Assembly: GCF_029395355.1 (NCBI RefSeq)
Contig: NZ_CP113913.1
Span: 1,426,001 to 1,490,000, forward strand
Direction: 5' to 3'
Source of the DNA: Bifidobacterium sp. ESL0800
GTDB taxonomy: Bacteria; Actinomycetota; Actinomycetes; Actinomycetales; Bifidobacteriaceae
DNA: 64,000 bases
Shown here: positions 5,157 through 62,926 of the stretch, piece after piece
How positions within the stretch are numbered: position 1 is the first letter of the stretch
Layout of the letters: each line of letters opens with the position of its first letter
Position numbers and translations under genes: made by a program
The notes under the pieces: model-generated
What the model was told of the DNA's origin: nothing
The model's database searches: none
Seen by the model: only the letters and a program-made list of their open reading frames with translations

Positions 5157-5370
5157 ATCTTCTCCGTTCTCTGACGAACATGTTCAGCTGACGTCGCTTC
5201 ATTCTCGACATTCGGCTTCACCACCGGACAGCTTCTCTCACTCATGATACAAGGACCCTGGCTCTTGAAAGGCAGGGAGGCCCAGCACCTTGCCAAACGC
5301 ACTGATACAATGCTCAACGAGAGCAGATAACAGCCTTATCATCTTGAGGGCATGAAAGAGACGGCCAACA

Positions 5371-6717
5371 TTGCGTCAATGGAAGAAGCGGTCGGAAGAC
5401 ACGCAAATACCAGTATCGGACGAGAATCTATCCATCGACGACACCTCATCCCAACTCGATTCGACGCACTCCGGCCAAATACCCACCGAAAGCAACGTCG
5501 ATGACAAAGACGAAGACAACCGAGTTGAGCGCGAAAGCAAGCCGTGGTTGGACCAAAGTGACAACAGACACGGCAAAACCGGCAATAACGGGATCCACGA
5601 AGATGCCGAAAACGAGGATGAAAACAGCGATGGCGACGGCAACGAAGACAATCAGAAAGACGATACCGGATATAACGTCGCCGATGGCGATGAAGACGAT
5701 ACCGCAGAAGGCGACGACAGCGATGACGCGGACGATATCGACGACGATGAAGAAGACAGTGACGAAGACGAAGACGAAGACGACGATGACGACGACACGG
5801 ATGACGAAGACGACGATGACGACGACAGCAAAGAAAGCAGCGACAAACCCAAGTCGAAAATCGCGAGCGCTTGCGCCTTCCTCTTTGTCATAGTGCTTAT
5901 TGCCGCACCGTTCGTCCTTCCGCACCTCGGCGGCCATTCCGCCTCGTCGTCCTCGGCTTCAGACGACAAGGCATTCGAAGAGAGCGTGAGAAAATCCCAT
6001 ATCCTCAACAAGGCGAACGACACGTTCACCGCGGATATCCAGAAGCCACAAGACCAACTCGGTAACGCACTCTATATCATCACCCAAAGCAGCGGCATGA
6101 ACGGCCCAGCCGACACCATCGAGCAGGACGATCTCGACGATCTCAAGGCCGCCACGGCCACGGTGGCCAATTCGGGAAGCAAATTCACCAAAACGCAGGC
6201 CTACCGCGATTACGGCAATATCCGCAAGGCCTACCAGGCATACCAAGCCAAAAATAAGAAGTACGTCAACGTACTCAACAACTTCAGCGATTCGGTGGTC
6301 GGCTACACCGCCACCATCAAAACCTGCCAAGAGGACGCGCAAAAATACACAAACCTCAACGATGACCCCGATTCCGTCAATACCATACAGACCATCATCA
6401 CCAACTGCGAGACCTCCGCGCAAAGCGTCACCGCGTCCAAAGACCCGTTCATCAAAGCCTACGCAAACGCGTCCCTCAAACGCATGGGCAAAGCGCAAAA
6501 ACTGCTCGAGCAAATCAAAGCTCTCGGCTCACGTGACGAGATTATGAACAATCCTGAAAAATCGCAGAAATACTGGGCCATAGAAGACAAAATCAGGATT
6601 TATCTCTACGAGACCAAAGAATACGGAGACGGCAATCCCGTCTACAAAGAACTGGACGACGCGAAGCCGAGCAAGGAAATGAAAGACCTGTACACGACGA
6701 TATACACCATCAAATAA
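5371..6717 (+). CDS. Acidic single-span membrane protein of unknown function
   Basis: 448 aa if read from the TTG at 5371; no better-placed ATG in this frame precedes the acidic region. Residues 1-162 are hydrophilic and become almost pure Asp/Glu between about 75 and 155. One membrane span follows (about 164-185, ACAFLFVIVLIAAPFVLPHL). The remaining ~260 residues are helical and contain a few Cys (TCQEDAQ, TNCETS), consistent with an extracytoplasmic domain. I do not recognise a family. The topology, an acidic tail inside and a helical domain outside, suggests an envelope protein. It is transcribed divergently from lemA. The start codon is uncertain; the frame itself is convincing because of its length and domain structure. 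Confidence 0.7.
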   Translation: MRQWKKRSEDTQIPVSDENLSIDDTSSQLDSTHSGQIPTESNVDDKDEDNRVERESKPWLDQSDNRHGKTGNNGIHEDAENEDENSDGDGNEDNQKDDTGYNVADGDEDDTAEGDDSDDADDIDDDEEDSDEDEDEDDDDDDTDDEDDDDDDSKESSDKPKSKIASACAFLFVIVLIAAPFVLPHLGGHSASSSSASDDKAFEESVRKSHILNKANDTFTADIQKPQDQLGNALYIITQSSGMNGPADTIEQDDLDDLKAATATVANSGSKFTKTQAYRDYGNIRKAYQAYQAKNKKYVNVLNNFSDSVVGYTATIKTCQEDAQKYTNLNDDPDSVNTIQTIITNCETSAQSVTASKDPFIKAYANASLKRMGKAQKLLEQIKALGSRDEIMNNPEKSQKYWAIEDKIRIYLYETKEYGDGNPVYKELDDAKPSKEMKDLYTTIYTIK

Positions 6718-54145: not shown

Positions 54146-54373
54146 GTTTGTTCTTCTCCATTTCATACCCGCGTCTTATCGCCGTTTACGGTTGCACGGG
54201 CCATTCGTGTATCGCGCCTTGAAGCGCGCTTCCATTGCAAGGGTGACGCAGGAACGCGTCCACTTTATTGGCAGGAACCCCTCAATTCCCAAAGCAAAAT
54301 TTGATTATTAGCGTGCCGTTGGACAACCACGTCAGCGCCCGGCATAACGTGAGCCTCGCCACGCCGCCGTATT

Positions 54374-54538
54374 CCGCTAATAGTCACTTCTTGCGCGCGA
54401 TACGAGGTCAGCTGTGTAAAAAGTGACAATTAGCTTGTCTATTTGTCACCTTTTGCACATATCCGCCAAACGGTGCCGCGCCAAGGCATGAAAAACCTCC
54501 GACGCTGAAACGTACGGAGGTTTTCAACATTGTTTTCC
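54374..54538. repeat. Island-flanking direct repeat, left copy
   Basis: A 165-bp sequence nearly identical to 62542-62725, differing by about ten substitutions and two indels. It contains a GTGTAAAAAGTGACAATTAG hairpin element and the terminator 54492-54524. The pair brackets the whole GRE/kinase/EIIC/DeoR block. Confidence 0.88.
54492..54524 (-). terminator. Terminator after the EIIC gene
   Basis: AAAACCTCCG (54492-54501) pairs with CGGAGGTTTT (54515-54524). It is part of the direct repeat and is the same hairpin as the rpmB terminator at 62679-62711. Confidence 0.85.
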
Positions 54539-54562
54539 TCTCGGCAAACGGCTAAGCCCCGT

Positions 54563-55777
54563 TTACGACTTGGTCGTTGCGATTGCGTCAGCGGCGATAC
54601 CCACTTCGGAATTCGCAGAGGTTTCACCTTCGGCCTGTGAGCTCTCCCCAAGCAACTCATGGTCTTCCTCGGAGCGAACCTCGTCGTTTTCGTCGTTCAA
54701 GTTGTCCACAGGGAACTTGAACACGAGCGTCAGCAGGAAGGCGACCACCATGGCGACCACACAGGAAATCACGTAGGTCACGAAGCCGCGACCGAAGAAA
54801 ACCGGCAACGTGGCGATGCTAGGAAGCGCGAAAGCGTGGGCCTGGACACCGGAATATCCGGCAATGGCGCCACCCACTCCGCCGCCGATGCACACCGCGG
54901 CAAGAGGCATCTTACGCGGGAGGTTCACGCCGAACATAGCCGGTTCCGTAATGCCGAACAAAGCCGAGATACTGGCGGAAATACACGTCGTCTTGAACGG
55001 CGCGTCATGACTTTTGAGCATGACGGCCAACGCGGCTCCTGCCTGGGCAAAGACGGGAGGACCCATCAGAGCGAGTACCGTATCGTGCCCGGAAACCGCC
55101 AGATTGTTCATGCCGATGAGAATCAGGCTCCAATGGAAACCGAAGATGACCATCGGCTGCACGGCAGCGCCCAGCAGCAAGCCGGCGACGATCGGCGAAA
55201 GCGCATACACCCATTCGTATCCGGCAGCGAGGCCGTCACCGACCACTTTGCCGAACGGTCCGAACAGCAGCAATGTCACCGAGCCCACGAACAAGACGCA
55301 GATAAGCGGCGTGAGGAATCCACGAATCACTTCCGGCAGGACCTTGTCGAGCCACTGCTGCACAAAGCGCAGCAAACCAATCGCCAGAATGATGGGCAGC
55401 ACGCTTGAAGCGTATTTGACGCCCAACATCGGAATGCCGAAGAAGGACAGCGTAGTGCCCTTTTCCTGCACTTTCACAAGCGCCGGATACAGCATCAGGC
55501 AGGCGATGACGACGGCGATATACGGATTGGTCTTGAATTGCTTGGCGGACGTGTACGCGAGCATGACGGGCAGGAAGGTGAACACACACGACGCCATCGC
55601 GTCAAGCACTAGATACGTATTGCCGGAAGCGTCCAGTACCTTGCAGCTGGTGAGGATGATCAGCACACCTTTCATGATGCCCGCCGCGGAGAGCAGGTTC
55701 ACAATCGGCAGGAAAATCCCGGAAATACCATCGATGACGATGTTCAGAAGACTCTTTTTCTTGGCCATGTCATTCAC
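54563..55777 (-). CDS. Free-standing PTS EIIC-type permease (glucose/beta-glucoside superfamily)
   Basis: 404 aa from a GTG at 55777 overlapping the kinase stop (GTGA); an ATG at 55768 is an alternative. About eight to ten membrane spans. The signature GITEPAMFGVNLPRKMPLAA belongs to EIIC domains of the Glc/Bgl PTS superfamily, and FGFHWSLILIGMNNLAVSG is also typical. The N-terminus lacks an EIIB domain with its Cys, and the acidic C-terminal tail (about 345-404) lacks an EIIA domain. It therefore cannot phosphorylate on its own. Beside a ROK kinase in a translationally coupled pair, it may act as a plain sugar permease. Confidence 0.88.
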   Translation of the reverse strand: MNDMAKKKSLLNIVIDGISGIFLPIVNLLSAAGIMKGVLIILTSCKVLDASGNTYLVLDAMASCVFTFLPVMLAYTSAKQFKTNPYIAVVIACLMLYPALVKVQEKGTTLSFFGIPMLGVKYASSVLPIILAIGLLRFVQQWLDKVLPEVIRGFLTPLICVLFVGSVTLLLFGPFGKVVGDGLAAGYEWVYALSPIVAGLLLGAAVQPMVIFGFHWSLILIGMNNLAVSGHDTVLALMGPPVFAQAGAALAVMLKSHDAPFKTTCISASISALFGITEPAMFGVNLPRKMPLAAVCIGGGVGGAIAGYSGVQAHAFALPSIATLPVFFGRGFVTYVISCVVAMVVAFLLTLVFKFPVDNLNDENDEVRSEEDHELLGESSQAEGETSANSEVGIAADAIATTKS

Positions 55778-56799
55778 TCGCTTTGAAAGTTGTTGACCAG
55801 CACCTTGCCTTCAGGCACCTTTTCCTCTTCGTCGTTTTCGCCGTTGGGCGTTTGTTTCGACTTTTCGATCGACCCGTCCACATCTTCCTTGTTGACGAAG
55901 TACTCACGTTCGTCGACGCCGCGCAGATAGCATTGCAAGGCGCCCACGAGGTTGGCGTCATTGCGGAATTTGCAGCTGACCACATCCGCTTGGGAGACAA
56001 AGTACGGGCAGGTCGCATACAGCTTCTGCAGATTGGCGCGTATGGCTTCGATGAACGCAGGCTGAGCCGAGATGCCACCACCGATGGCAAACCGTGCCGG
56101 ATCGACGATGTTCTGAATATTGAATATCTGCACCGCGATGTCGTGGGCATAATGATCCAGACAATCCAACGCCTCGGGCTCCCCCGCGTTCACCGCTTCA
56201 AAGAATTTCACGCCATCCATGGAATCCGGATCCACGCCCTTGATGTTCGCATAATTCGCGCACAGGGCAGGCGTTCCACATTGGTTGCCCCAAACCCCCT
56301 CACGGGTCGGCCCTTCATCGCGCGAAGTAATGATGTAGCTCACTTCGCCGGCCGAGAAGTGCGGGCCACGATGAAGCACATGGTTCTTGATGATGCCGCC
56401 ACCGATCATGGTTCCAAACAGCAGGACAAAGCCATCGCTCACATCCTTCAGCGCGCCCACGGTCGCCTCTGCGGTGGCCGCGCACTTCGCGTCGTTGTCC
56501 ATCACGATACGCACCGGGCAATGGCTGAACAGCTCATGACGAAGATAAAAATCGTCGTTGTAGCGCAACGCTCCGCCCATCGCGCAATATCCCTCGTCCG
56601 AATCAATGATGCCCGGCATCGAGATGGCAATGCCCTGTACCCCGGGCTCCTGCTTGAAAAGCTGAGTCAACGCCGCAATCAATTCATCACGACCTTCCTG
56701 CGGGGTGGGAATCGACCCACGGGAGGTAATCGAGCTGTTCTCCAACATATACGCATATTTGATATTGGTTCCGCCGATATCAATGGCCAGAATTTTCAT
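55774..56799 (-). CDS. ROK family sugar kinase
   Basis: 341 aa. The ATP-binding motif DIGGTNIKYA starts at residue 7. GIAISMPGIIDSDEG, RIVMDNDAKCAATAE (with the catalytic Asp) and LFGTMIGGGIIKN are the ROK motifs. The usual ROK zinc-finger CxCGxxGCxE is absent; the corresponding place reads GVWGNQCGTPALCANYANIK, as in some beta-glucoside kinases. The last ~35 residues are acidic and disordered. It starts after a 256-bp gap from the aldolase gene and overlaps the EIIC gene. It probably phosphorylates the sugar imported by EIIC. Confidence 0.87.
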   Translation of the reverse strand: MKILAIDIGGTNIKYAYMLENSSITSRGSIPTPQEGRDELIAALTQLFKQEPGVQGIAISMPGIIDSDEGYCAMGGALRYNDDFYLRHELFSHCPVRIVMDNDAKCAATAEATVGALKDVSDGFVLLFGTMIGGGIIKNHVLHRGPHFSAGEVSYIITSRDEGPTREGVWGNQCGTPALCANYANIKGVDPDSMDGVKFFEAVNAGEPEALDCLDHYAHDIAVQIFNIQNIVDPARFAIGGGISAQPAFIEAIRANLQKLYATCPYFVSQADVVSCKFRNDANLVGALQCYLRGVDEREYFVNKEDVDGSIEKSKQTPNGENDEEEKVPEGKVLVNNFQSE

Positions 56800-56950
56800 G
56801 ATGCATCCTTGCGTTATCCATACCTGTTATTCGAGTTTCAGGGCACAGTACGCCCCGGAATTTCGTAAAAAGTTGATTTTGAAGGTGCAATGCCAAATCG
56901 GCACCGACCGCGCATTGCGCCTTGAAATGTTCGTCTCGTTGTGTTGACGT

Positions 56951-56994
56951 CGGTTTGCCGGCAGCTTCATTGGCTAAAGCCACCGGCGGAACCG
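56951..56994 (-). other. Strong hairpin in the aldolase-kinase gap
   Basis: CGGTT...GCCGG...GCTT arms face AAGC...CCGGC...AACCG across a 9-nt loop. The 256-bp gap 56800-57056 also holds a second stem (GATGGTATGG/CCATATCATC with one wobble, near 57010-57045). No open frame is convincing. It may be an mRNA processing or attenuation site within the operon. Confidence 0.5.
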
Positions 56995-57056
56995 ACAATC
57001 TTGATAACTACGATGATATGGAGGAGACATCCCCCATACCATCGAGGCGACTACGA

Positions 57057-57734
57057 CTACAGAGTGGCCATAGTCTTTCCGGAGCCGACAAGACCTTCGA
57101 AATCGGCCACGAAATCATCTACTGCCGCATCGATTGCAGCGTTCTTGGTCAGCGAGTCGATGACCGAAGACGCTATCGTCGCAGCGCCCACACCATGAAC
57201 TGCCAGGTCAAGCACCTGCTGCGAGTTCTTGAAGCTCGCCGCGAGGACTTCGCAATGCAGGTTGTTGGACTTGAAGATGTCATGAATCTTGCACGCGACG
57301 CCGACTCCGTCGTAACCCATATTGTCGATGCGGTTGATGTACGGGGCGGCATACACTGCTCCTGCCTTCGCCGCTATGAACGCCTGCAAAGGCGTATAGA
57401 TCGCGGTCGCAGTCACGTTGATGCCTTCGCCCGACAACTGCTTGATGGCCTTGAACCCTTCCGGAACGCTCGGAACCTTGGGAAACGTGTTGTCCCCCAG
57501 CTCCTTGACGATCCGATGGGCATCGGCGACCATGCCTTTGGCGTCTCTGGCGACCACCTGCGCGTGCAGCTCGCGATCCGGCCCGATAATCGAGCGAATC
57601 TCGTGCAGCACCTCGAAAGGCGGGCGTCCGGCCTTCGCCAGAATCGAGGGGTTGGTGGTCACACCATCGATCGGATAATACTCGACCAAGCGTTTGATGG
57701 CCTCGGTATCCGCATCATCAATGATGAGTTTCAT
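57057..57734 (-). CDS. Fructose-6-phosphate aldolase-like transaldolase
   Basis: 225 aa, the short FSA size. The start KLIIDDADTEAIKRL and DGVTTNPSILAKAG are FSA/transaldolase signatures. Lys86 in FPKVPSVPEG is the Schiff-base lysine. Gln59 (HAQVVA) is the residue that distinguishes FSA-type aldolases from transaldolases, which have Glu there. AAPYINRIDNMG and VLAASFKN complete the active site. In E. coli, FsaA and FsaB are encoded beside YbiW and PflD-type GREs and were reported to cleave 1-deoxyfructose 6-phosphate; the same role is likely here. It starts 51 bp after the GRE stop (AAAGGA upstream). Confidence 0.9.
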   Translation of the reverse strand: MKLIIDDADTEAIKRLVEYYPIDGVTTNPSILAKAGRPPFEVLHEIRSIIGPDRELHAQVVARDAKGMVADAHRIVKELGDNTFPKVPSVPEGFKAIKQLSGEGINVTATAIYTPLQAFIAAKAGAVYAAPYINRIDNMGYDGVGVACKIHDIFKSNNLHCEVLAASFKNSQQVLDLAVHGVGAATIASSVIDSLTKNAAIDAAVDDFVADFEGLVGSGKTMATL

Positions 57735-57785
57735 GGTTATTTCCTTTCATTGCCAACAGTTCAGCGATCAATCACGAATCGCGGA

Positions 57786-60212
57786 TTACAGCGTCTGTTC
57801 CGTCCGCTCGATGATGTCGTCCTGGGTCGCCTTGGACAGCACCACGAAGAACGCGCTGTAACCGGCGACGCGAACGATCAGATCACGATGCTTTTCAGGA
57901 TGGACCTGCGCATCAAGCAACGTTTCGCGGGAGACGACGTTGTATTGCACGTGGTAGCCGTGAAGCTTGTCGAAGAACGCACGGGTCAGCAAAGCGAGTT
58001 TCTGCCTGTTCTCCATCTTCGAAAGCACCTGCGGGGTCATCTTCTGGTTGAGCAGCACACCTCCGGTGATGTCATCGGTGGGCAGCTTGGAAACCGACTT
58101 GAACACGGCGGTCGGGCCGTGCTGATCGGCGGAATGCGAAGGGCTGCAACCTTCGGCGAGTGGCTCGCCTGCGGCACGGCCGTCAGGGGTGGCCAACGTC
58201 CCGGCGCCCTGGGGCACATTCGCCGAAATCGAGCTGGTACCGGCGTAGTAGATCCCGCCGATCGGCCCGCGGCCATACCTGGTGTTGTGGTACTTCTTCA
58301 TCTCATCGATGTAGATGTCATACGCCTGGCGAATCAGCGAATCGACGTAATCATCGTCGTTGCCGTACTTCGGCGCCGCCTTCATCAGCTCACGGATATG
58401 TTCGTTCTTTTCGCCCTGCCAATTGTCCTGCATGGCGTTCCACAGCTCTTCAGGCGTCACCTTCTTCTCTTCGAAGACCACCTTCTTCATGGCGGCGAGA
58501 GAATCGGCAAGATTGGCGATGCCCACCTGCAGATCGGAGATGAAGTCGTAGACGGCTCCGCCTTCCTTCATGTTCAGTCCGCGTTCGATGCAGTCGTCGG
58601 TCAGGCAGGAGCAGAGAATATCCGCAGTATCGTGTTCAAGCACCATATCGCAGGTCGCGTCGATGATGACGCACTGACGGCACATCTCGCGGATGACCTT
58701 GTCCCAGCACTGCATGACCTGGTCGAAACTCGTGAAGTCCTTGAAATGCCCGGTGCCCTCAACGAGCTTCTCGCCGCTTTGCGGGTCGACACCGTTGTTC
58801 ATGGCAATCAGCAGCGCCTTCGGGAAATTGAGGAAGCTCATGCCGGTGCAGCGATAGCCCCATTTGCCCGGCACTGCCGTTTCCACGCAGCCGATGGCGG
58901 AGTAATTGTAGGCATCCTCGCGGGCCACACCCTTTTCGATGAAGCTGGGGATGATGACCTCGTCGTCGTTGAAGGCGGGCATACCGAAACCGCAACGAAC
59001 GACTTCGATGCACTCGTTCATGAAATCGTCCGGAAGGTTCTCGTGATAACGGACGGTGAGGTTCGGCTGGGTCAAATGGCACTGGGCCACAGACTTCAGG
59101 ATCAGCCAGCTCATGGGGTTGGTGGCGTCGCGCGCTTCGCCGTCCACCAGCTTCTGGCCACCGACGGTGACATTCTGGTAGAGCGGCGAGCCTGCGGAGA
59201 ACTGGGTGTGGCTCCACGGGCGGACCTTGTTGATGGTGAAGGTTTTGAGCCACAGATTGCACATCAGCTCATCGGCCTCATCAGCCGTGATCCGACCGGT
59301 TTTCAGATCGTTTTCATAGTACGGCCACAGATATTGGTCCATGCGACCATACGAAAGCGAATGACCGTTGGACTCGAGCTGCAGCGTGAGGTGGATCAGC
59401 CAGACCGATTGCACCGCTTCGCGCAAGGTATGTGCCGGCTCATACGGCACGTGGTCCAGCGCTTCAGCCATCCCGCACAGTTCCGAAGCACGACGTTCGT
59501 CGCCCTTTTGCGAGCATTGTGTGGCTTGCTGGCGAGCCAACGAAGCATATCGACCGGCGAATTCCTTGACGGCATCGGCCACGATGAGAATGGCCCGATA
59601 GAAGTAGCTCTTATGGATGTTGCGGTAATCCGTCAGATCAAGGGCGTCAAGCTTTTCCTGGGCACGACGCGCATAGTCCTTCAGTCCCAGCTTCAACAAT
59701 CCCTCATAATTGACGGCGCAATGGGCGTCGCCCGAAGTGATATTGCCCTCGGACTTGATGATGCCGAGGTCATAGAACAGCTTGGAATGGGGAGGGAAGG
59801 CCGCCAACCCACGGTCCTGAAGCGTGTTGTGCTTCCAGAACGGATAGATGGAACGCAGCTTTTCCTTGTTCTCCTCCGTGATGGTGAACACATCGCCATC
59901 GCGCTTTTCAAACTGGTCGAGCTCGTCAATCACCCAGTCCATCGCGTATTCCGGGAAAATCGGCGCCGACCTGTTCTTCGAGGCTTGGTTGCCGGCGATA
60001 ACCGTCTCGGGCTCAATGAAAATCGGCATCTGCTCAAGAATCTCTTTGAGCATGATGGCACGCTTGATGGCCAAAGGCTGATCCTGCTGCTCCTGATAGA
60101 CCTTGGTCGTGATCATCGCCCGATCGACATCGATCTGCGGCACTGCATCCAACAGCTGATCGCGGAAAGAGTTCATCCTGTCAGTGAGCTTTCCAAAATG
60201 TGAATCACTCAT
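57786..60212 (-). CDS. Glycyl radical enzyme of the C-x-E (dehydratase/C-O lyase) type
   Basis: 808 aa, full GRE length. The active-site loop AIGCVETAVPG has Cys442 (thiyl radical) and Glu444 in the C-x-E pattern of C-O or C-N cleaving GREs, not the Cys-Cys of pyruvate formate-lyase. The glycyl-radical motif RVAGYSAFFVVLS places the radical at Gly784, with LSKATQDDIIERTEQ at the C-terminus. Context with an FSA-like aldolase and an activase suggests a YbiW/PflD-like 1,5-anhydrohexitol 6-phosphate lyase rather than a glycerol or propanediol dehydratase. The leader is short: a consensus promoter at 60259-60287 and AAAGGAAAG before the ATG. Oxygen-sensitive and anaerobic by nature. Confidence 0.92.
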   Translation of the reverse strand: MSDSHFGKLTDRMNSFRDQLLDAVPQIDVDRAMITTKVYQEQQDQPLAIKRAIMLKEILEQMPIFIEPETVIAGNQASKNRSAPIFPEYAMDWVIDELDQFEKRDGDVFTITEENKEKLRSIYPFWKHNTLQDRGLAAFPPHSKLFYDLGIIKSEGNITSGDAHCAVNYEGLLKLGLKDYARRAQEKLDALDLTDYRNIHKSYFYRAILIVADAVKEFAGRYASLARQQATQCSQKGDERRASELCGMAEALDHVPYEPAHTLREAVQSVWLIHLTLQLESNGHSLSYGRMDQYLWPYYENDLKTGRITADEADELMCNLWLKTFTINKVRPWSHTQFSAGSPLYQNVTVGGQKLVDGEARDATNPMSWLILKSVAQCHLTQPNLTVRYHENLPDDFMNECIEVVRCGFGMPAFNDDEVIIPSFIEKGVAREDAYNYSAIGCVETAVPGKWGYRCTGMSFLNFPKALLIAMNNGVDPQSGEKLVEGTGHFKDFTSFDQVMQCWDKVIREMCRQCVIIDATCDMVLEHDTADILCSCLTDDCIERGLNMKEGGAVYDFISDLQVGIANLADSLAAMKKVVFEEKKVTPEELWNAMQDNWQGEKNEHIRELMKAAPKYGNDDDYVDSLIRQAYDIYIDEMKKYHNTRYGRGPIGGIYYAGTSSISANVPQGAGTLATPDGRAAGEPLAEGCSPSHSADQHGPTAVFKSVSKLPTDDITGGVLLNQKMTPQVLSKMENRQKLALLTRAFFDKLHGYHVQYNVVSRETLLDAQVHPEKHRDLIVRVAGYSAFFVVLSKATQDDIIERTEQTL

Positions 60213-60234
60213 CGTACTTTCCTTTCATAAATGT

Positions 60235-60318
60235 AAGCTACATCACTTACGTAGCTTTAGAATAACGAAAGAAAGTTTTTTTGTCAATTTCGTAAGCGAT
60301 TTATCTTTTGTTCGTAAA
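60235..60318 (-). promoter_or_regulatory. Promoter and candidate operators of the GRE operon
   Basis: On the minus strand TTGACA (60287-60282), a 17-nt spacer and TATTCT (60264-60259) form a near-perfect sigma-70 promoter. TTACGAA occurs twice just upstream (around 60318-60311 and 60296-60289). An AAGCTAC/GTAGCTT inverted repeat (60235-60241 and 60251-60257) covers the start site. The region 60213-60558 holds no gene and is very A/T-rich. Confidence 0.7.
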
Positions 60319-60558
60319 TAAAAAACTTTCGATTAAGACTTTTTGACTTCTATTTCTTGTATATTCACCAATGTCCGAATCAAAAAGAAAGCATAGAGAT
60401 ATCGTTTCAAACCTTGAAAACAATAAAAGATCGTTTACCGTTTCGACATCAGAAGTCGCAGATAACTACTCATAGCACAAATCCGAAACGAGGCAGACAA
60501 AGGCCACGTACGTGCAGAAAAATCAAACCGAATTAAAAAATTGCCCTAAAACGAAATA

Positions 60559-61305
60559 TCAGACCGTGACGATGTCAACACCGTGCCGGTCCAGCATCTT
60601 CCGGGCCGGCTCCGAAAGGCCGACATCGGTGAACGTGGCGACATCCTTGTCCCCGAATTCAAGAGGCACGGTACCCCGTCGGGAGAACTTGCTGCTTTCG
60701 GTGACCACGACCACACGGCCGGCGTGTTGCGCCATATCGCACACGGTCTCGGCACGCAGAGAATCACGGTTGGCAAACCCGGTTTCCTCGCTGTAACCGT
60801 CGGTGCCGGCGAACAGGATATCGACGTACATGCCTTTCAGACAGCGCTCGACCATCGGCCCGACCATAACCTGCGCCGTCTGCTGGTATATCCCACCTAA
60901 GAGAATGATTTGGCTTTGGGATTTGCCACGTACATATCCGGCGACAAACGCGCTGTTGGTGATGATGGTGAGGTCGTTTTTGCTCGCAACCAGTTCGGCA
61001 GCCAACAGAGCGCAAGTGCTGCCGTTCTCGATCATCACCGTATCGCCGTCGTGGACGCATTCGGCTGCACGCCTGGCAATTTTCAGCTTCTCCTCGTAAT
61101 GGTAGGCAAGCCGGCTTTCCATGTTGTCGGCGCTTTTGAGCACGGCGAATCCATGCTCGCGATCGATGATGCCACGCTTTTCGAGCCCGCTCAGATCCTT
61201 ACGCATGGTGACTTCGGAAACCCCGAGTTCCTCGGCAAGCGTGGCGACCTCAATACGTTTGTGCTCGGTGAGCAACTCGAGAATACGATTCGTCCTCGTT
61301 TCCAT
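60559..61305 (-). CDS. DeoR family transcriptional regulator
   Basis: 248 aa from the ATG at 61305 (GGAAGGCG upstream); an in-frame extension to 61359 is unsupported. The DeoR helix-turn-helix lies at residues 18-50 (VATLAEELGVSEVTMRKDLS, EKRGIIDREHG). The C-terminal sugar-phosphate-sensing domain has TVMIENGSTCALLAAELV, ILLGGIYQQTAQVMVGP and TDGYSEETGFANRDS. It is placed between the activase gene and the GRE operon, and probably represses both until a sugar phosphate binds; the shared TTACGAA sites fit this. Confidence 0.9.
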   Translation of the reverse strand: METRTNRILELLTEHKRIEVATLAEELGVSEVTMRKDLSGLEKRGIIDREHGFAVLKSADNMESRLAYHYEEKLKIARRAAECVHDGDTVMIENGSTCALLAAELVASKNDLTIITNSAFVAGYVRGKSQSQIILLGGIYQQTAQVMVGPMVERCLKGMYVDILFAGTDGYSEETGFANRDSLRAETVCDMAQHAGRVVVVTESSKFSRRGTVPLEFGDKDVATFTDVGLSEPARKMLDRHGVDIVTV

Positions 61306-61496
61306 TGATACGCCTTCCGTAATCAGGTTCACGCTTGGTCTACCCTGCCAGCCTAACACCCAATACCAAGGAATAACAAACAGATCGGCTTTCGAACAAA
61401 AGCTTTTCTCTTACTCAACTAAAGCCCCTGTTTTCGTTGATACTGTCAAAACGGTAATCACGAAACCGCCGGAAGCAAGCATTCGCAAGGAGAAAC

Positions 61497-62405
61497 CTAT
61501 AAGAAGGCCTCCACACCCTCGTCAAGATACACCTGCTTGAAATCCTCAATATCTTCAGGATGTGTGTTGGGCACGCCTTTGAACGCATAGTCCTCGCGAC
61601 CCAGCAACTCGTACTTCGATTCGCCGAAATTATGGAACGGCAGCAGCTGCACCTTATCGACCCCTATTGCCTTGAGTTTGCGGGCCATGCCCCTCGCATC
61701 ATCAAGCGAATCATTGAAACCGGGAATGACAGGAGTGCGAATCAACAGGTCTTTACCCGTTGAAACCGCGTAGGCCATGTTCTTGAGGATCAGCTCGTTG
61801 CCGACACCGGTGCCCCGCTTGTGAAGGTTCGTGTCATACTGCTTCATATCCATGAAAATATGGTCGAGATGCCCGATGGCGGCTCTGAAAACCTTTTCGG
61901 GCACATGGCCAGTCGTCTCGATACTGGTGTCGATGCCATGAGCGTTGAGCTTATCGAGCAACTCGACACAGAAATGTCCCCAAACCAACGGCTCACCGCC
62001 GGAAAGCGTGACGCCTCCCCCGCCTTCCTCGTAGAACGGCTCATCCTGCAGACATTCCTCAAGCACGTCATCACTCGTGCGCCTCACTCCGACAACAGAG
62101 AGACCGGGGCAATCCTTCAATGCTTCATCGACCTGCGCGTCGCCCATTTGCAGGCGAGTCACGTCCGGCCCTCGCCGCGCACCGGTTTTAATGAAACCGA
62201 CTTTACGGGCGAGAGCATCGGAGGCGTCGCAGCCATCGCAAGAACGCTCATCCCACTCAATCTCAGGAGTCTTCTTCTGACTCTCCGGATTGGAGCACCA
62301 GCCGCACCGCAATGGGCAACCCTTGAGAAAGACCACGGTTCGTATGCCCGGGCCGTCGTTAAGACTGAACTTCTGAACATTGAAAACAATCGCGGATTCC
62401 AACAT
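61497..62405 (-). CDS. Glycyl radical enzyme activase (radical SAM)
   Basis: 302 aa from the ATG at 62405 (AAAGAGG upstream); an in-frame ATG at 62447 would add 14 residues. The radical SAM cluster is Cys30, Cys34, Cys37 in GCPLRCGWCSNPES. FSLNDGPGIRTVVFLKG and GGGVTLSGGEPL are GRE-activase signatures. The auxiliary ferredoxin insert is reduced: only Cys56, Cys59 and Cys99 remain, instead of the eight Cys of two clusters. From memory, E. coli YbiY is similarly reduced. It should install the glycyl radical on Gly784 of the neighbouring GRE. It has its own promoter. Confidence 0.92.
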   Translation of the reverse strand: MLESAIVFNVQKFSLNDGPGIRTVVFLKGCPLRCGWCSNPESQKKTPEIEWDERSCDGCDASDALARKVGFIKTGARRGPDVTRLQMGDAQVDEALKDCPGLSVVGVRRTSDDVLEECLQDEPFYEEGGGGVTLSGGEPLVWGHFCVELLDKLNAHGIDTSIETTGHVPEKVFRAAIGHLDHIFMDMKQYDTNLHKRGTGVGNELILKNMAYAVSTGKDLLIRTPVIPGFNDSLDDARGMARKLKAIGVDKVQLLPFHNFGESKYELLGREDYAFKGVPNTHPEDIEDFKQVYLDEGVEAFL

Positions 62406-62464
62406 TGCCTCTTTCGAACGATGTGCAGCAACGTAATTCATATCCAAAAATTACGTTCAAAACT

Positions 62465-62493
62465 AATATAACTTACGTTCGTAATTAAAGCAA
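62465..62493 (-). promoter_or_regulatory. Activase promoter with internal palindrome
   Basis: On the minus strand TTGCTT (62493-62488), a 17-nt spacer and TATATT (62470-62465). Inside the spacer is TTACGAACGTAA (62484-62473), an inverted repeat with a 2-nt centre. TTACG recurs at 62451-62455. The TTACGAA core matches the sites upstream of the GRE promoter, suggesting one common regulator. Confidence 0.65.
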
Positions 62494-62541
62494 GATTGAA
62501 ATCACTTATCTAAATCCAACCCGGAATTTTTGATCTTGCTC

Positions 62542-62725
62542 CCGCCAATGGTCACTTCTTGCGCGCGATATGAGGTCAGCCGTGTAAAAAGTGACAATTA
62601 GCCTGTCTATTTGTCACCTTTTGCACATATCCGCCAAACGGCGCCGTGCCAACAAACCGTGTTGCGCCAAGGCATGAAAAAACCTCCGACGCCGAAACGT
62701 ACGGAGGTTTTCAAAATTGCTTTCC
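62542..62725. repeat. Island-flanking direct repeat, right copy
   Basis: 184 bp, nearly identical to 54374-54538 apart from substitutions, a 1-bp indel and an extra ~18 bp (around 62651-62668). It contains the AAAAAGTGACAATTAG hairpin element and the rpmB terminator. It lies between the activase promoter region and the rpmB stop codon. Confidence 0.88.
62679..62711 (-). terminator. Terminator of rpmB
   Basis: AAAACCTCCG (62679-62688) pairs with CGGAGGTTTT (62702-62711), 20 bp past the rpmB stop. On the minus strand a T-run follows the stem. Confidence 0.85.
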
Positions 62726-62731
62726 GCGTTT

Positions 62732-62926
62732 TCACGCAACCACGCGCTGAACCTTGCCGGCCTTGAGGCACTTGGCGCACACGCGAACGCGGACGTTCTG
62801 TCCGTCGATAGTGGTGTGAACCGACTGCAGGTTCGGGCTGAAGGTGCGCTTATTGCGGATATGTGAATGCGAAACGCTGTAACCGGTCTGCGGTCCCTTG
62901 CCGCACACTGCGCAACGAGCTGCCAT
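62732..62926 (-). CDS. rpmB: 50S ribosomal protein L28
   Basis: 64 aa from the ATG at 62926; a longer frame reaching 63079 is not supported. [20 protein letters not shown] is the L28 N-terminus with a CxxC zinc half-site, and [11 protein letters not shown] supplies the second CxxC. This is the zinc-containing form. It ends at the terminator that lies within the right flanking repeat of the metabolic island. Confidence 0.96.

Follow-up and report, generated by a model that had tools for sequence, protein, structure and literature searches.

Anhydroglycolysis relies on the aldolase FSA, which cleaves 1-deoxyfructose 6-phosphate, and on GldA, which reduces hydroxyacetone. According to the accessible text of PMC12441222, the Escherichia coli glycyl radical enzymes (GREs) YbiW and PflD cleave 1,5-anhydroglucitol 6-phosphate and 1,5-anhydromannitol 6-phosphate to 1-deoxyfructose 6-phosphate after phosphorylation by the phosphotransferase system (PTS), and 1,5-anhydroglucitol is the precursor of a metabolite that accumulates in two human neutropenia disorders. 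We analysed a stretch of 64,000 nucleotides from Bifidobacterium sp. ESL0800 (contig NZ_CP113913.1, positions 1,426,001 to 1,490,000; hereafter the window), whose genome is a single 2.25-Mb contig. Six open reading frames (ORFs) follow each other on the minus strand of the window, from 62405 to 54563. They encode a GRE activase, a DeoR-family regulator, a GRE, an FSA-type aldolase, a ROK-family kinase and a PTS EIIC protein. We favour, with a probability of about 0.65, the view that this block is an anhydroglycolysis operon working on 1,5-anhydroglucitol with a YbiW-like GRE, a ROK kinase and a lone EIIC as uncoupled carrier. That the block encodes a YbiW-like anhydroglycolysis is, as a prediction from sequence, well supported: it is placed with the YbiW pathway because of the branch of its GRE, the pocket of this enzyme, its partners and its operator. 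An earlier sequence-only reading had proposed the same pathway, and the GRE branch, the pocket columns and an operator common to the E. coli ybiUVWY/fsaA locus bear it out, 1,5-anhydroglucitol being the presumed substrate. The genes are the following.

61497..62405 (listed ORF 61497-62447), minus strand: YbiY-like GRE activase, a radical S-adenosylmethionine protein (Radical_SAM; TIGR02494 at 277.6 bits, cut-off 174.35)
60559..61305 (listed ORF 60559-61359), minus strand: YciT-like DeoR-family regulator (HTH_DeoR PF08220, DeoRC PF00455)
57786..60212, minus strand: GRE of the YbiW (1,5-anhydroglucitol-6-phosphate lyase) branch (PFL-like PF02901 and Gly_radical PF01228, sequence matches in the PDB, tree, pocket columns, fold)
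57057..57734, minus strand: FSA-type aldolase with Gln59 and Lys86 (TAL_FSA PF00923, alignment; best solved relatives are fructose-6-phosphate aldolases)
55774..56799, minus strand: ROK-family sugar kinase, nearest to beta-glucoside kinases (PF00480; BglK model at 164 bits, below its cut-off of 550; PDB 4htl)
54563..55777, minus strand: stand-alone PTS EIIC of beta-glucoside type, without IIB or IIA (PTS_EIIC PF02378; TIGR01995 match spanning the IIC part only)

All six proteins match the expected Pfam families above the Pfam cut-offs, which confirms the island outlined by the sequence-only reading, with its DeoR gene inside. The residues named by that reading are also in place: Cys442 and Glu444 of the C-x-E thiyl loop and Gly784 of the C-terminal glycyl motif are invariant in a 35-row GRE alignment, and Gln59 and Lys86 of the aldolase align with those of FsaA and FsaB. 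The activase alignment included YbiY, PflC and relatives. The kinase and EIIC genes share four bases.

Anhydroglycolysis by E. coli ybiUVWY-fsaA is reportedly described in Ma et al. (2024; doi 10.1021/jacs.4c07718). The block shares with this system the GRE branch, most pocket-loop residues, an activase, an FSA aldolase, a YciT-like DeoR regulator and the operator sequence. It differs in having a ROK kinase and a lone EIIC, where the accessible text of PMC12441222 gives PTS entry for E. coli, in having no counterpart of ybiU and ybiV among its six genes, and in carrying the regulator gene inside, whereas yciT lies about 480 kb from ybiW. With the E. coli pflD/pflC/frw/fsaB/gldA system, whose PflD is a 1,5-anhydromannitol-6-phosphate lyase, it has in common the reaction type, the activase and the FSA aldolase, but the two GREs are 37% identical and of different branches, PTS components and GldA are annotated in E. 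coli, and no operator match is found there. Judged from its genes, the block would depart from known anhydroglycolysis in substrate entry and phosphorylation, which would not pass through a PTS. The block suggests that a gut pathway described only recently exists in bifidobacteria, where its entry step would differ and dispense with a PTS. A search of titles and abstract beginnings found neither anhydroglycolysis by name, nor bifidobacteria joined to the pathway, nor a lone EIIC with a kinase, which is weak evidence as most subscription journals lay outside that search.

In the proposed pathway, 1,5-anhydroglucitol would enter through the lone EIIC acting as uncoupled carrier, and the ROK kinase would use ATP to convert it to the 6-phosphate. 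Once activated by its activase, the GRE, an oxygen-sensitive radical enzyme, would open the ring, by analogy with YbiW, to give 1-deoxyfructose 6-phosphate. The FSA aldolase would split this product into hydroxyacetone and glyceraldehyde 3-phosphate, the latter joining the sugar metabolism of the cell. Through TTWCGAAYRWAAG boxes, the YciT-like DeoR protein would control the activase, regulator and GRE units, presumably repressing them until a phosphorylated intermediate releases it.

Branch and pocket of the glycyl radical enzyme

The window GRE scores 905 bits with an Enterobacter protein (PDB 6xs4) and 893 bits with E. coli YbiW, against 580 with glycerol dehydratase, 551 with diol dehydratase, at most 482 with choline lyases and 444 with PflD. 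Its sequence is 51.1% identical to YbiW, 39.1% to glycerol dehydratase and 37.3% to PflD, and the HypD and CutC NCBIfam models score it at about half their cut-offs. The relatives were the best 80 of 166, a sample biased toward close ones. A quick tree was built on 104 of 109 rows, after removal of fragment L094 and of near-identical copies of the window GRE from the genus (among L083-L088). There the GRE falls inside an 81-row clade whose labelled members belong to Actinomycetota, Bacillota and Spirochaetota, with one Planctomycetota record, and YbiW is its sister (82 rows, SH-like approximate likelihood ratio test support 97). Glycerol dehydratase, two HypD proteins above the NCBIfam cut-off and PflD branch outside this group. 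Bits, identity, tree and pocket columns agree on the resemblance to YbiW, a member of one of the two E. coli systems to which the sequence-only reading had likened the block. The clustering with glycerol, propanediol or choline enzymes that this reading had named as a contrary outcome was not seen, glycerol dehydratase being judged from the tree, and the propanediol (551 bits) and choline (at most 482 bits) enzymes, of which the tree held no labelled member, from PDB scores only.

A column was called diagnostic when YbiW and at least 95% of the clade agree in it and none of 21 other GREs has the residue. The alignment of 103 rows used here, without L002, yields 37 such columns, all kept by the window GRE. 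Five loops (150-170, 278-290, 331-350, 438-462 and 643-672), which we take, from glycerol dehydratase, to line the pocket, account for 21 of the 37. Only 0-4 columns are obtained when any of the 21 other GREs is substituted for YbiW. Loss of the residues that bind an anhydrohexitol phosphate, the other contrary outcome named beforehand, is not observed in a count over the 37 columns, as distinct from the ligand contacts of PDB 8id7 themselves. The diagnostic set includes the G156-H164 loop, W451 and R454, and an inserted GRGP at 647-650; R454 and R648 are candidate phosphate-binding residues. Over 109 positions in the pocket loops, the window GRE is identical to YbiW at 86, to glycerol dehydratase at 40, to PflD at 37 and to the two HypD proteins at 30 and 27. 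The loop after C-x-E reads RCTGMSF, and not HDSAFF as in glycerol dehydratase 1r8w.

The AlphaFold model of the GRE (predicted local distance difference test, pLDDT, 82.0; predicted template modelling score 0.88) has its best VIA-align 2 match in 8id7 (Z 46.2, root-mean-square deviation 2.1, 772 aligned residues), an entry titled YbiW in complex with 1,5-anhydroglucitol-6-phosphate. Foldseek ranks 6xs4 and 8id7 first, about ten or more orders of magnitude ahead of glycerol dehydratase.

The partners were surveyed within 9 kb of the GRE in 81 loci, the window and its best 80 relatives, many of them on short contigs. An activase is found in 70, a DeoR regulator in 66, a ROK kinase in 51, an FSA aldolase in 35 and an EIIC in 8, the survey of PTS proteins covering the PF02378 family. 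The corresponding numbers are 47, 46, 26, 30 and 6 among the 48 loci with at least 5 kb on both sides (the window included). Orthologues of the block genes stand in the same order in relatives and the ratios of non-synonymous to synonymous substitutions (dN/dS) of the six genes, measured between the window and three close carriers, are 0.018-0.097, so that the block is not a chance assembly. Its closest named relative is in Bifidobacterium sp. ESL0784, with a 97% identical GRE. The host genome codes for a second PF02901 protein at 999-1001 kb, which matches the window GRE weakly (141.8 bits). Loci L119 (genome G085) and L120 (G089) carry yet another GRE with an activase, on a branch of its own and 36% identical to the window GRE; that of L119 scores below the TIGR01774 cut-off.

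Operator and regulator

A conserved box is visible in the aligned upstream regions of nine bifidobacterial loci. Its 13-bp pattern TTWCGAAYRWAAG occurs in the block at the three sites given here, together with a promoter.

60305..60317, minus strand: candidate operator upstream of the GRE gene, exact site, in a region conserved in 9 aligned loci
61390..61402, plus strand: candidate operator upstream of the DeoR gene, exact site
62472..62484, minus strand: candidate operator upstream of the activase gene, exact site, in a region conserved in 6 aligned carriers
60259..60287, minus strand: sigma-70-like promoter TTGACA-17-TATTCT before the GRE gene, just downstream of the operator, its TTGACA kept in 9 aligned loci

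These are the only three exact sites in the host genome, where the reversed control pattern has none. Nine carrier genomes hold 22 exact sites, 15 of them at the block, and the reversed pattern is found three times. The outside-block sites, one each in G084, G085, G090, G091, G113, G114 and G115, may mark further genes of the regulon. When one mismatch is allowed, 52 of the 81 loci show the operator in the 350 bases preceding a gene for a GRE, DeoR, activase, FSA or ROK protein. At this stringency there are 75 sites in 36.7 kb of upstream sequence versus 21 in the other 1.31 Mb, or 2.04 versus 0.016 per kb. Exact copies also number three in the E. coli ybiW locus: ybiU and ybiV are each preceded by one, and the third falls in the ybiY-fsaA gap. 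A 16-base form, ACTTTCGAATGAAAGT, is shared without change by that gap, L004 and L005. No site with up to one mismatch was found in two E. coli pflD-region loci, nor an exact one in the 10 kb around E. coli yciT.

The DeoR protein is 37% identical to E. coli YciT in pairwise alignment, and YciT is its best NCBIfam model (201 bits, below the cut-off of 450). The accessible text of PMC8464067 reports that chromatin immunoprecipitation with exonuclease treatment (ChIP-exo) places YciT upstream of ybiUVWY and fsaA, that deletion of yciT changed the expression of ybiV, ybiY and fsaA, that the YciT motif is palindromic and that the targets hint at an uncharacterised pathway. We infer that the DeoR protein of the block binds the 13-bp box. 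The operator ties anhydroglycolysis to YciT and would predict what YciT responds to in E. coli. A promoter scan of 54200-62800 gave one match versus a shuffle mean of 4.6 and is by itself no evidence; terminator-like sites in the block are below the shuffle level.

Substrate entry and competing explanations

The EIIC is a 404-residue protein that shares with the IIC part of BglF-type beta-glucoside enzymes II the EIIC domain, including the GITEP motif and the FGxHW region, but comes without EIIB or EIIA; a sequence search of the PDB with it gave no match at E 0.01. At 94% identity or more it occurs in the same 6 of 112 genus genomes as a GRE of at least 97% identity, and its next match is at most 41% identical. 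It evolves like the other block genes (dN/dS 0.039-0.043 against the three close carriers). It is the sole PF02378 protein in the host genome, G000, and in G084, G085, G090 and G091; in G088 a further protein matches weakly (35.1 bits). Glucose-class EIIB (PF00367), the only EIIB class searched for, is present in none of the six carrier genomes, and the same search was positive in G113-G116 and, among 14 control genomes, in 5. On this result, the idea that the genome hides a split PF00367 EIIB was rejected. Neither EI (PF02896) nor HPr (PF00381) gave a match in G090 and G091, nor did HPr in G084 and G085. In these last two genomes PF02896 matches within a frame of 910 or 881 residues, a length that fits pyruvate phosphate dikinase.

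EIIC proteins that pass unphosphorylated sugar have precedents in uncoupled EIICB-Glc mutants of E. coli (PMC3901232) and in the diffusion of maltose through TreB (PMC3938415), as far as the accessible texts of both reports go. These are mutants or side activities of complete enzymes; the EIIC of the block would be a natural and dedicated case, and so a natural test of whether evolution, as opposed to mutation, can make a facilitator of an EIIC. Beta-glucoside kinases phosphorylate C6 of a glucoside. Since PF00367 EIIB is absent from the carriers and EI and HPr from two of them, and since EIIC precedents exist, the simplest reading of these gene inventories is that sugar probably passes the EIIC uncoupled from phosphorylation and is handed on to the ROK kinase. 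The sequence-only reading was right that a kinase and a permease replace the PTS, although the permease turns out to be a PTS component in its own right, an EIIC whose EIIB these genomes lack. Taking the parts together, we lean moderately toward a PTS-free radical glycolysis in which a lone EIIC came to carry sugar in unphosphorylated form where the genome lacks the phosphorelay, an ATP-dependent kinase of the operon replaced the PTS, and the regulator with its 13-bp operator persisted across Bifidobacterium, Clostridia and the YciT regulon of E. coli.

Several observations weigh against a 1,5-anhydroglucitol operon of this kind. In the clade of the window GRE, 79 conserved columns differ from YbiW, 11 of these in the pocket loops, and neither YbiW nor the 21 other GREs have W333, Y288, T644 or Q668. 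The branch leading to YbiW is long and falls outside the clade, in a tree whose program warned of long branches, and an identity of 51% would allow the substrate to have shifted. CutC (Z 44.8) comes close to YbiW in the fold comparison and the model is poor (pLDDT below 50) at 333-342, 558-563, 646-652, 660-673 and 689-694, pocket loops included; the substrate therefore cannot be read from the fold alone. An FSA gene is not seen near the GRE in 46 of the 81 loci, many of them on short contigs, and 29 of the 81 have no operator with up to one mismatch. Seven of the 22 exact sites are found away from the block, all in genomes other than the window's. The accessible text of PMC8464067 counts 49 YciT sites in E. 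coli and suggests that the protein acts in osmolarity. On the entry side, the ROK kinase exceeds the cut-off of no NCBIfam model, and G000 and G088 do encode both EI and HPr. No hydroxyacetone reductase was identified by comparison with GldA and the PF00465 family, to which that search was confined.

The same radical ring opening could act on another anhydrohexitol phosphate, such as 1,5-anhydromannitol 6-phosphate, or on a close sugar-alcohol phosphate. We hold this to be unlikely, although the window clade is separate from YbiW and has conserved pocket-loop residues of its own (W333 and Q668 among them), the specificities of the ROK kinase and EIIC leave room for it, and PflD shows a related GRE at work on the mannitol epimer (title of PDB 8id0; accessible text of PMC12441222). 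The pocket loops follow YbiW and not PflD, which is a more distant relative, and both the operator and the regulator type are those of the ybiW locus, the two pflD-region loci having no site. A change of enzyme class is far less plausible. A GRE of the glycerol, propanediol, choline or hydroxyproline type would belong to the same superfamily, and CutC structures come within 1.4 Z of YbiW for the model. This candidate was nevertheless rejected, and we regard it as very improbable, on the scores of the HypD and CutC models, PDB bits for all four types, identity, the tree (for glycerol dehydratase and HypD), the pocket loops, and the presence of an FSA aldolase and a sugar kinase in the operon.

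As to entry, the EIIC might be coupled to phosphotransfer in trans and the ROK kinase serve something else. G000 and G088 have the general PTS proteins for it, and in G000 the EI and HPr genes stand beside EIIC-GAT and EIIA_2 genes of an ascorbate/galactitol-type PTS (L112 2522-7190; 1608.5-1613.2 kb). With no PF00367 EIIB in any of the six carriers and with four carriers short of HPr, two of these also of EI, such coupling seems improbable to us.

Neighbourhoods, probable insertion and minor observations

ROK kinase and EIIC occur together in three loci only, all bifidobacterial: the window, L003 and L005. Five of the eight EIIC loci are non-bifidobacterial (L065, L074, L080, L082 and L021, where the EIIC is cut by the locus end), and a ROK kinase was found in none of these five. 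Lactose-type IIA and IIB adjoin the EIIC in L065 and L082, and some other loci have genes for sugar-type ATP-binding cassette transporters. L004 (B. saimiriisciurei) and L006 (B. primatium) have GRE, FSA and ROK genes without such an EIIC in the locus. Downstream of these genes is a PF06800 sugar transporter, tested for L004 and alike in L006; in both genomes the sole PF02378 protein is elsewhere, in a frame of about 800 residues. An apparently conserved ORF between kinase and transporter in these two loci (cluster c19) is likely an antisense artefact, with no Pfam match for the L004 copy and no hydrophobic windows. A PflD-branch GRE lies in the same neighbourhood in L060, L044 and L082, that of L060 having PflD as nearest PDB entry. 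In L029, L037 and L045 a GFO/IDH/MocA-family oxidoreductase is encoded directly 3' of the GRE (the L045 protein was tested). This family includes 1,5-anhydrofructose reductases, so these three loci may make their own anhydrohexitol.

The block is missing from the rpmB (L28)-major facilitator superfamily (MFS) gene junction of relatives, and direct repeats flank it.

54327..62669, no strand: block missing from the rpmB-MFS gene junction of relatives (BLAST against six relatives)
54374..54538, plus strand: direct repeat, left copy (85% over 184 columns)
62542..62725, plus strand: direct repeat, right copy, reaching the rpmB terminator region (85% over 184 columns)

The junction was read in 6 of 10 genomes searched with RecG. 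In all six, rpmB, the MFS gene and recG stand together with no block gene at the junction; the MFS-side match ends at 54325-54328 and the rpmB-side match begins at 62668-62671. The GC content is 55.1% in the block and 58.0% in the window. A nucleotide search of E. coli with the block gave no match. The block was likely, though not certainly, acquired by insertion and not lost in the relatives. A 63-base piece of the right repeat has two matches in L003, L115, L116 and L118 and one in L117; among the six relatives without the block it has one match in five and none in L180. The loci that we take, from species names, to be monkey-derived have other neighbours than the window block.

The sequence-only reading had noted the absence of a gldA-like reductase, and E. 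coli GldA indeed gave only an insignificant tblastn match in the window (E 0.69, at 36 kb), none in the block. Comparison of GldA with 12 loci among 41 PF00465 places in nine genomes gave at best 25-26% identity, within this family; the G000 protein is 25% identical over 142 columns (E 0.002).

The YciT alignment of the DeoR protein begins at a methionine whose codon starts at 61305. The activase probably starts, to judge from alignment, at the ATG at 62405 or at the next TTG at 62402, because GAAAGAGG precedes both codons in six of six aligned carriers; the TTG is kept in all six and the ATG in five (AAG in L117). The auxiliary ferredoxin insert of the activase is degenerate in the window, with 7 cysteines versus 11-14 in the compared segment of seven relatives, and is missing in L045 and in the three monkey bifidobacteria (L004, L005 and L006). 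Upstream of the activase gene, L117 (genome G088) has a second FSA gene at 5251-5925, 92% identical to that of the window, an arrangement that a past tandem duplication of the block could have left.

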